From assembly GCF_012273015.1 (NCBI RefSeq), contig NZ_CP050954.1:1798001-1862000 (forward strand): a DNA stretch of 64,000 nt, in the 5' to 3' direction. Each line of letters starts with the position of its first letter. The first letter of the stretch is position 1. The position numbers and the translations under genes were made by a program. Of the stretch, positions 58,927 through 61,541 are shown piece by piece. The DNA comes from Hymenobacter sp. BT18. Lineage in GTDB: Bacteria > Bacteroidota > Bacteroidia > Cytophagales > Hymenobacteraceae. The notes beneath the pieces were generated by a model that ran no database searches, had not been told where the DNA came from, and saw only the letters and a program-made list of their open reading frames with translations.

Positions 58927-59541
58927 TTATTTTTCAAGTACCACGTAAGAGTTCCGGGAGCCGGGAACCGAACCGCTTACTACGATTAGGTTTTTGTCGG
59001 CTACTACGCGCAGCACCTTTAGGTTCTGAATTTTCACCCGGTCGCCGCCCATACGACCCGCCATGCGCATTCCTTTGAATACGCGTGAGGGCCAGGAGCA
59101 GGCACCGATAGAACCGGGGTGACGCAGACGGTTGTGCTGACCGTGGGTCTGCCCGCCTACACCAGCGAAGTTGTAACGCTTCACTACGCCCTGGAAACCT
59201 TTGCCCTTGGAGGTACCTACCACGTCAACGAATTCGCCTTCCTCAAAGAGGGTAGCGTTGATTTCGCTGCCAGCTGCGTATACCTCGTCGGTGCGGAACT
59301 CAACGAGTTTGTGTTTGGGCGTAGTGCCCGCTTTGGCGAAGTGCCCAGCCAGGGGCTTGTTGGTGTTCTTGGCTTTTTTCTCGCCGTAGCCGAGTTGGAT
59401 GGCTGCGTAGCCGTCCGTTTCGATGGTCTTAACCTGCGTCACTACGCACGGACCCGCCTCGATGAGCGTGCAGGGAATGTTCTTCCCGTCCGGAGTGAAG
59501 AGGCTTGTCATACCGATTTTTTTACCGATGATGCCAGGCAT
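58927..59541 (-). CDS. rplC: 50S ribosomal protein L3
   Basis: The 204-residue protein starts [20 protein letters not shown] and has [41 protein letters not shown], with the typical core [12 protein letters not shown]. The start at 59541 was chosen on homology; the longer frame would begin inside the leader. A TTG-N21-TAGCTTTG promoter lies about 60 bases upstream, so rplC starts the main ribosomal transcript rather than following rpsJ. Confidence 0.97.
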
Positions 59542-59568: not shown

Positions 59569-59593
59569 CGAAAACGCCCGAACGGCGTTTTCG
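59569..59593 (-). promoter_or_regulatory. Leader hairpin of the rplC transcript
   Basis: A perfect 10-bp stem (cgaaaacgcc / ggcgttttcg) with a 5-base loop lies between the predicted start of transcription and rplC. No T run follows. It could be a regulatory leader, for example a binding site for a ribosomal protein. Confidence 0.55.
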
Positions 59594-59604
59594 GAATGGG
59601 AGTG

Positions 59605-59636
59605 CAAAGCTAGGGAATTGTTGGCGCATTTTCCAA
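59605..59636 (-). promoter_or_regulatory. Promoter of the rplC-rplQ cluster
   Basis: On the minus strand TTG (59634-59636), 21 bases and TAGCTTTG (59605-59612) match the Bacteroidota promoter layout. It lies between the O-antigen-ligase-like gene and rplC. It is the best promoter match in the window. Confidence 0.7.
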
Positions 59637-59808
59637 CCCCTTTCTAAAATATTTTCAGGGAGTTAGCAATAGTCACCTATGTGTTCTAGTCGTTCAGTGT
59701 CAGGCTATTTCTCGCAACGGACGGCATCATTTGGTATTCGGTTACCTAAGCTACGAGCCTCCTCCGTTGCCTATCGGGTATTCCAATAGTACAATCTGTT
59801 AATGGGAG

Positions 59809-61089
59809 CTAGCGAGGCCGCCACTGTTGCTCCGGCTCGACTGGCATCTCCTGCCCGTTTAAAGCCAGTAATATAAACAGCAGGGCAAATGTGAGCCCAA
59901 CCTGAGCTTCCAGGGTGTACTCCACTAGGAAGGATAAGGTGATGATCAGGTACTGGGCTAACAGCAACGGCGAATAATGGGGCCAGATGCGAATACCCGG
60001 GAAATAGAAGAACAGCGTAAACAACAGTACGCCCAGCCCACCATAGGCAACTAGGTAATAGAGAAACTGATTGTGCGGTAAGATATATGCCTCCTCGGAG
60101 ATAGAGGGGAACTGCTGGCGGTACTGTTGGGCAATGGCCGGCTTCATGTTGGCCCGGCCAACGCCAAGCACTGGATGCTCTTCAAAGATTTCCAAGGCTA
60201 CCTTATAGGAATAAAACCGCCCTACCAGGGAGTAATTATTGGCCGAGGTACTTTGCCGTACGCGCCCCACGTCGTCCTGGGTATTAAGAAACTTGTTGCG
60301 AAAGGTTGGAAAGACCCCGTAGCTCACCATAGGGGTAAGCAGCATCAGGGAAGCAATGAGCCCGGCGAGCCGCACATTACGCCGCCATAGCAGCAACCAG
60401 CCAATGGCAACACCCGCCAGTGCATACAGCGTTAGCAAGCCGCTGCGCACGGCCAGCATATGCTGATACAAAACCAGGAAGGCAATAATCACCAGCAAAT
60501 ACCGACGCCACGGCCCGTCTACCACCTTCCGTCCTACAAGTACCGTTGCGGCTGCTACCGCATACGTCACCATTAAACTAAACCGGATATGGTCCGGAGC
60601 CGTTGGCATGATTTGCGACTCTAGGTACCGCTGGTTGATTTCGACGAAATGACTTAGATAATAACCCGCACTGCCCAGAGCAGACAAAGTGACGAGTGTG
60701 ATAAAAAACACGTTCAACCTCACTAGGTAACGTCCCGGCAGACCAGGCAACCACAGAAACGCAAGGGGAAGCACTAGGAAAGGCAACTGCAGCGTGACGC
60801 CCCGCCAGAACTCAGCGGCATTCCCAACCTGTGTTTGTAGTCCGGATAATAGTACTAAGCCAAATACCCCTAACAGGCTGTAGTAAACGGCCGAGAACTT
60901 GCTACGATAGGTAGCAGAGCAAGTAAGCCGGTAGAAAAGCGCCACAATAAAAAGAGCAACGATGCCAATGCTCGTCAGGACGCGAAAAAAATTCACCGTG
61001 AATAGCCCAACCATAATGATTCCGCAGCTCAGCGCAGCTAGCCGCAACAGCACAGTAGAGTCTTTTAAATAACCAGGCAAAAAACGCAT
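59809..61089 (-). CDS. O-antigen ligase (WaaL/Wzy)-like membrane protein
   Basis: The 426-residue protein has about eleven membrane helices and, near residues 300-350, a large loop with SLVGRFYSYKVALEIFEEHPVLGVGRANMKP and PHNQFLYYLVAYGGLGVLLF. The G-R-x-x-x-W/Y...HPxxGxGxG and PHNxxL patterns mark the Wzy_C/O-antigen ligase family. It should join or polymerise glycan units on a lipid carrier at the periplasmic face. The start at 61089 (MRFLPGYL) is used because the longer frame begins in the T run of the rpsJ terminator. Its position between rpsJ and rplC is abnormal. No clear promoter was found before it. Confidence 0.85.
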   Translation of the reverse strand: MRFLPGYLKDSTVLLRLAALSCGIIMVGLFTVNFFRVLTSIGIVALFIVALFYRLTCSATYRSKFSAVYYSLLGVFGLVLLSGLQTQVGNAAEFWRGVTLQLPFLVLPLAFLWLPGLPGRYLVRLNVFFITLVTLSALGSAGYYLSHFVEINQRYLESQIMPTAPDHIRFSLMVTYAVAAATVLVGRKVVDGPWRRYLLVIIAFLVLYQHMLAVRSGLLTLYALAGVAIGWLLLWRRNVRLAGLIASLMLLTPMVSYGVFPTFRNKFLNTQDDVGRVRQSTSANNYSLVGRFYSYKVALEIFEEHPVLGVGRANMKPAIAQQYRQQFPSISEEAYILPHNQFLYYLVAYGGLGVLLFTLFFYFPGIRIWPHYSPLLLAQYLIITLSFLVEYTLEAQVGLTFALLFILLALNGQEMPVEPEQQWRPR

Positions 61090-61169
61090 ATGCACTTGAA
61101 GAGCCGGAAGCAGGTGCGTGGCGTTGCATGCTTCGACGAAGAGGGTATTGAGACTGCTAAGTTGAGGAT

Positions 61170-61210
61170 AAAAAAAGAACACCCCGCAGAGGTGGCTCTA
61201 CGGGGTGTTC
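61170..61210 (-). terminator. Strong intrinsic terminator after rpsJ
   Basis: On the minus strand the perfect stem gaacaccccg / cggggtgttc (61201-61210 with 61177-61186) encloses a 14-base loop and is followed by a run of T. It lies 26 bases after the rpsJ stop and separates rpsJ from the ligase gene and rplC. Confidence 0.93.
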
Positions 61211-61235
61211 CTTACTTAATCAAAGAAACCAGTCC

Positions 61236-61541
61236 TCAGACTTTGATTTCAACGTCTACGCCACTAGGCAGCTCAAGCTTCATCAGGGCATCTACCGTCT
61301 TCGACGAAGTCGAGTAGATATCCACGAGGCGCTTGTAGGTGCAGAGCTGGAACTGCTCACGCGACTTCTTGTTCACGTGGGGCGAACGAAGTACGGTGAA
61401 CTTCTCCTTAATGGTCGGCAATGGAATCGGACCGCTTACGATAGCGCCCGTAGCCTTCACCGCCTTCACGATCTTCTCCGACGATTTGTCCACCAGGTTG
61501 TGGTCGTAGGATTTGAGTTTGATGCGAATTTTCTGGTTCAT
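61236..61541 (-). CDS. rpsJ: 30S ribosomal protein S10
   Basis: The 101-residue protein starts [20 protein letters not shown] and has [30 protein letters not shown], with the S10 core [17 protein letters not shown]10 also serves as NusE in antitermination. It is usually the first gene of the S10 operon. Here it ends the rpsG-fusA unit, is followed by a strong terminator, and lies about 1.7 kb from rplC. Confidence 0.97.

Follow-up and report, generated by a model that had tools for sequence, protein, structure and literature searches.

In the 64-kb window, by which we mean the whole stretch of DNA that was analysed, the minus strand carries, in order, rpsJ, a terminator, an open reading frame for an O-antigen-ligase-type protein, a promoter and rplC. 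Judged by sequence comparison, the insertion is real, old and lineage-specific, and it placed an ordinary gene of the O-antigen-ligase type at a site that is less disruptive than first supposed. The best joint explanation, to which we give a probability of roughly 0.83, is that one WaaL-type ligase gene was gained in an old gap between two transcription units, descended with losses and is served by a weak promoter of its own; here the layout, the age of the boundary, the distribution and the predicted fold come from comparing sequences, while the single gain, the promoter, the expression level and the activity are what we infer. In Cytophagales, the rpsJ-rplC junction has the look of a long-standing operon boundary at which insertions, and even full separation of the two genes, are tolerated, so that a foreign gene disrupts far less there than its position suggests. 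Gains and losses in the interval (the slot, below) form a natural series in which to study how genes settle beside highly expressed ones. Among the listings and passages of literature covered, on Hymenobacter O-antigen and LPS and on the S10 operon and gene order of Bacteroidetes, we found no account of a ligase between rpsJ and rplC.

Boundary signals between rpsJ and rplC

The open reading frames, the terminator call and the Pfam matches agree with the layout given in the preliminary description (Table 1). The longest reading frame of the ligase starts at a GTG (61182) that falls within the rpsJ terminator, and ATG 61089 is the likely start instead. The gene has a GC content of 0.521, the window one of 0.572. 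A scan of the window for E. coli-type promoters does not list the rplC promoter, an Rfam scan of the window gives no match, and Rfam searched on the slot gives only matches below the gathering score, nearly all of them over the terminator.

Table 1. Features of the rpsJ-rplC interval, in window coordinates and in the order of transcription.
Feature	Position	Strand	Basis
rpsJ (S10), last gene of the upstream unit fusA-rpsJ	61236-61541	-	Pfam Ribosomal_S10, E 3.4e-38
Intrinsic terminator 3' of rpsJ	61174-61213	-	18 pairs (9 G-C) and T run; found in relatives with and without ligase
Candidate ligase promoter, CAACTT-N16-TCT (putative function)	61140-61164	-	(C/G)AACTT enrichment in ligase slots
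WaaL-type O-antigen ligase (predicted), 426 aa (probable ATG start)	59809-61089	-	Pfam Wzy_C, AlphaFold2 model, match to WaaL 7TPG
AT-rich near-palindrome (CTGAAAATATTTCAG type), 5' of the rplC promoter	59643-59657	-	Conserved across the genus in alignment
rplC promoter, Bacteroidota type, TTG-N21-TAGCTTTG	59605-59636 (TTG 59636-59634; box 59612-59605)	-	Sequence comparison
rplC leader hairpin, GAAAACGCC..GGGCGTTTTC	59570-59592	-	9 pairs, 54 leaders compared
rplC (L3), first gene of the downstream unit	58927-59541	-	Pfam Ribosomal_L3, E 1.3e-16

It is common to treat the S10 operon as a single conserved unit. Here, as in E. coli, rpsJ, rplC and further ribosomal genes follow in the same order (the names past S10 and L3 come from reading the sequence), but unlike in E. 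coli rpsJ closes with a terminator and rplC owns a promoter. In passages of PMC10931766, the E. coli operon is controlled by uL4 acting in its leader. The sequence before rplC has the form of Bacteroidota sigma-A promoters (TAnnTTTG), with the difference that its box continues into a conserved CACTCCC, and its -7 consensus is that given for Flavobacterium psychrophilum in an excerpt of PMC9723704.

These signals do not depend on the ligase. Within 110 nt 5' of rplC, TTTGCACTCC is found in all 81 ligase loci, all 38 ligase-free loci of the genus and all 16 loci from other genera of the family, and the promoter consensus is nearly identical between ligase (73 rows) and ligase-free (38 rows) loci of the genus. 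In the last 300 bp before rplC, or in the whole gap where that is shorter, TAnnTTTG occurs in 130 of 135 loci compared with 11% of single-base shuffles (81/81 with a ligase and 49/54 without; the five loci that lack the TA of the box, L171-L175, all belong to one genus), and 80 of the 135 also have a TTG at the right distance, compared with 1.2% of shuffles. The terminator behind rpsJ is called in 75 of 81 ligase loci, 31 of 38 ligase-free loci of the genus and 14 of 16 loci from the rest of the family, with means of 5.2, 2.2 and 0.1 in dinucleotide shuffles; in the misses listed, a hairpin is visible by eye. Two loci with broken rplC starts (L113, L147) and three rows whose piece lacks rpsJ (L149-L151) were left out of the promoter, terminator and tree counts. 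In other families of the order, TAnnTTTGCA lies within 200 nt 5' of rplC in 15 of 19 regions where 0.13 are expected, both where rpsJ is adjacent (8/9) and where it is elsewhere (7/10). The other four regions are G283, with TTTGCAGTCC only, G169 and G194, with neither, and G180, where the rplC start is misplaced.

Taken together, terminator and promoter speak against rpsJ and rplC forming one transcription unit, and because both also stand in ligase-free relatives the boundary should be older than the ligase. It had been proposed that the ligase cut the S10 operon in two and that rplC acquired a fresh promoter. The first proposal finds no support and we reject it, since ligase-free Hymenobacter and other genera of the family have the same terminator and promoter; nor is the second supported, as the box also occurs in the majority of the families sampled across the order, with rpsJ adjacent or apart. 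The ligase would thus have entered a gap between two pre-existing units, fusA-rpsJ with a terminator of its own and the rplC operon with a sigma-A-type promoter of its own.

Identity of the inserted protein

The protein in the slot matches Pfam Wzy_C with E 2.6e-19 (69.9 bits, against a curated cut-off of 31.7), and the same family is matched, at E 0.001 or better, by 46 of the 46 slot ligases in our alignment, which draws on 80 intact ones. No match was found in NCBIfam, or by sequence among solved chains at E 1. An AlphaFold2 model built from the 46-sequence alignment has a mean pLDDT of 91.9, and its best match among solved structures is the ligase WaaL (7TPG; Foldseek E 3.2e-6; VIA-align Z 27.2 over 371 residues, rmsd 4.3), followed by SEDS proteins at Z 14.6 or less. 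Three residues, R215, R291 and H339, are invariant in all 46 proteins and are spaced like R191, R265 and H313 of 7TPG, the equivalence being one of spacing alone; the passages of PMC10920833 that bear on these residues name R191 and R265 as the diphosphate-binding arginines and H313 as the proposed acceptor-activating histidine. The predicted protein shares with WaaL (CAZy GT121) the Pfam family, the predicted fold and the spacing of a conserved Arg/Arg/His set, and differs from it in sequence (15% identity) and in being placed between ribosomal operons. The earlier identification of an O-antigen-ligase-type gene between rpsJ and rplC is upheld by Wzy_C and by the WaaL-like model.

Could the protein instead be a Wzy-type polymerase or some other glycan transferase? 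The Pfam family Wzy_C may include polymerases too, and a GT9 gene some 26 kb away is followed by a second gene for a Wzy_C protein. A conserved histidine would also fit this alternative, being found in polymerases of clan GT-C3 as well, according to parts of PMC10920833; in clan GT-C1, however, the same parts report that most polymerase families have Asp or Glu where the ligase has its histidine, whereas the slot proteins keep Arg, Arg and His with the spacing of WaaL, and their predicted fold is clearly closest to WaaL. We consider a polymerase or other transferase improbable, at something like one chance in five. Because WaaL is both the nearest fold and the match in Arg/Arg/His spacing, a WaaL-type O-antigen ligase is more likely than a polymerase. 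Such an enzyme would act in the periplasm, transferring a glycan linked to undecaprenyl diphosphate onto the lipid A core.

The second Wzy_C gene (L035:941-2245, minus strand) is found upstream of rpsJ and before a gene for an ECF sigma factor. At least 37 other genomes of the genus have a match on the same strand, 25-28 kb upstream of rpsJ, a count that is a lower bound with some weak second-copy rows left out.

Distribution and descent of the ligase

Among 120 Hymenobacter genomes, rpsJ and rplC share a contig in 115; three of the rest have no match to rpsJ or rplC and two have the genes on different contigs. A ligase lies between the two genes in 74 of the 115 (broken or split in three, G060, G080 and G085), 36 have a short ligase-free gap of roughly 239-383 bp, 230 bp being the smallest, and four have a longer gap without ligase. 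One more genome, G057, has rpsJ 990 kb away and the ligase still 5' of rplC, and is not counted among the 74. In the family sample of 60 genomes, the slot holds a ligase in all 8 genomes from one nearby genus and in none of the 16 fetched from four other genera. The order sample has 136 genomes, 121 of them outside the family, and 119 of these have both rpsJ and rplC. The two genes are adjacent in 39 of the 119, with gaps of 147-404 bp that are too short for a ligase, apart on one contig in 23, and on different contigs in 57, some of which may reflect assembly breaks. In seven of 17 other sampled families (f2, f4, f11, f14, f16, f17, f18) rpsJ never adjoins rplC in the sampled genomes, for f16 on the basis of different contigs alone.

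Named genomes give the same picture. A first scan with a single ligase protein as query returned no match; among the best 79 of 199 ligase loci, the ligase is flanked within 2.5 kb by rpsJ in front and rplC behind in 54, all of them titled Hymenobacter or Solirubrum, and two Adhaeribacter loci have a relative situated elsewhere. The preliminary description regarded the gene as an insertion and not as ancestral, and comparison of the interval across the order did not find the ligase throughout it. A gain specific to this lineage stands, as none of the 16 genomes from other family genera has a slot ligase and none fits the gaps in the 39 genomes outside the family where the two genes are adjacent.

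On a species tree made from fusA, rplC and rplD of 135 loci, the presence of the ligase requires 16 changes, compared with 42.7 in shuffles (0 of 500 shuffles are as low), and at least 14 changes are forced by well-supported branches. Parsimony counts of this kind cannot separate gain from loss, and the 16 changes could conceal several gains by transfer. The deepest Hymenobacter-Solirubrum branches carry the ligase, which fits one gain on the stem followed by repeated losses. The ligase tree, from which four short ligase ORFs are omitted and in which row L178, an ORF on the wrong strand, is to be disregarded, broadly tracks the species tree; the distances in the two are correlated across 75 slot ligases (r 0.657, L098 with its second-type slot ligase left out), a value that none of 1000 permutations attains (maximum 0.177). 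Ligases that lie outside the slot in genomes from two distinct subclades of the species tree cluster together, so some transfer or relocation took place. The ligase in the slot of G064 clusters with a second type, on long branches that call for caution. By these comparisons the insertion is not recent but older than most of the genus. We envisage that the gene entered once, before the Hymenobacter-Solirubrum clade diversified, and thereafter would have passed mainly by vertical descent; it would also have been lost repeatedly, relocated or transferred in some cases, and in one case apparently replaced by a ligase of another type.

How well do other histories account for these data? Several independent insertions by horizontal transfer, rather than a single gain followed by many losses, would explain the changes that well-supported branches force and the different ligase type in G064, but the agreement of the ligase tree with the species tree and the ligase on the deepest branches of the clade make such a history rather unlikely. 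Very unlikely indeed, by our estimate, is an insertion into an intact S10 operon that brought terminator and promoter with it and placed the ligase under growth-rate control with the ribosomal genes: it would give the layout as described, and agrees with the lack of a slot ligase in all 16 genomes of other family genera, but terminator and promoter are there without the ligase, the ligase is spread over 74 of 115 genomes of the genus, and few ORFs of the window have a lower codon adaptation (see below). A single old gain between two standing units remains our preferred history.

Transcription of the ligase and other features of the slot

The codon adaptation of the ligase is 0.384, third-lowest of 39 window ORFs of at least 150 codons (a mechanical list, not all of which need be genes), while the ribosomal genes and fusA, which are the reference set, have values of 0.616-0.821. 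This speaks against a ligase tuned for high expression or to growth rate, and we reject tuning for high expression. The suggestion that the site places the ligase under growth-rate control thus finds no support, with codon adaptation near the bottom of the window and a terminator that separates the gene from rpsJ.

How, then, is the gene transcribed? Right behind the rpsJ terminator, a (C/G)AACTT element is found in 54 of 81 ligase slots against a shuffled mean of 4.1 (related genomes not being independent); the 34 short gaps of the genus that lack a ligase contain it once, against a shuffled mean of 2.7. As it reads in the window, CAACTT-N16-TCT resembles the -35 and -10 of ECF sigma promoters, with a weak -10 side (17 of 55 have CTC at the best offset). 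The element may be the ligase's own promoter. Two other candidates were rejected. For a sigma-A promoter, TAnnTTTG occurs in 10 of 81 stretches before the ligase, in none with TTG at the right distance, and sigma-A boxes there are at or below the level of shuffles; an SM5-like TAnnTTGY occurs in 11 of 72, compared with 6.4 in shuffles, which is not convincing. Behind the ligase, terminators number 3 in 77 loci compared with 2.3 in shuffles.

Expression could also come about with no working promoter, solely by read-through of the rpsJ terminator, which would couple the ligase weakly to ribosomal transcription. The lack of a sigma-A box above shuffles fits this, as does the absence of (C/G)AACTT from 27 of 81 slots, but the element tracks the ligase, being frequent in its slots and rare in short gaps without it, and the terminator, with its 18 pairs, is a strong one. 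We rate read-through as a minority possibility. On our preferred reading, the ligase probably has its own promoter immediately 3' of the rpsJ terminator, either weak or dependent on an alternative sigma factor, from which it would be transcribed at a low level; because no terminator follows the ligase, this transcription would run on towards rplC.

The slot also takes other genes, and in this small sample surface genes are frequent among them. An antisense GT2 gene is present alongside the ligase in G010, G080, G082, G101 and G104 and without it in G078 and G107 (identified by Pfam in G078, G080 and G082 and by likeness in the other four). The slot of G028 has a GT9 and a GT2 gene behind the ligase, those of G006 and G073 have ORFs of 232 and 187 aa without Pfam match, and in G041 an ORF resembling a SprB-repeat adhesin (L151:3601-15900, plus strand), with at least 4400 stop-free codons, lies between rpsJ and the ligase. 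It is conceivable, though we think it improbable, that the junction is a recurrent landing site for surface genes (ligase, GT2, GT9, giant SprB-repeat adhesin) and that the ligase stands under an envelope-stress (ECF-type) sigma promoter behind the rpsJ terminator. In that case, control over the ligation of surface glycans would reside within the ribosomal gene cluster and leave it undisturbed.

At the start of the rplC mRNA, the leader hairpin has none of its pairs broken in the 54 leaders and two changed on both sides. It is possibly a new ribosomal-protein leader: it has no Rfam match above threshold in window or slot, and the table of PMC7247131 lists no rplC leader for Bacteroidia. The sequence TAnnTTTGCANTCC (window 59602-59612, minus strand; L216-L222) occurs seven times in the genome, compared with once for its reversed control. 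Five of the seven sites precede translation-related genes (bL31, rplC, secE-nusG, bL33 and release factor 1, the ORFs being named by reading, without database search), and the sites are possibly a class of ribosomal promoters.
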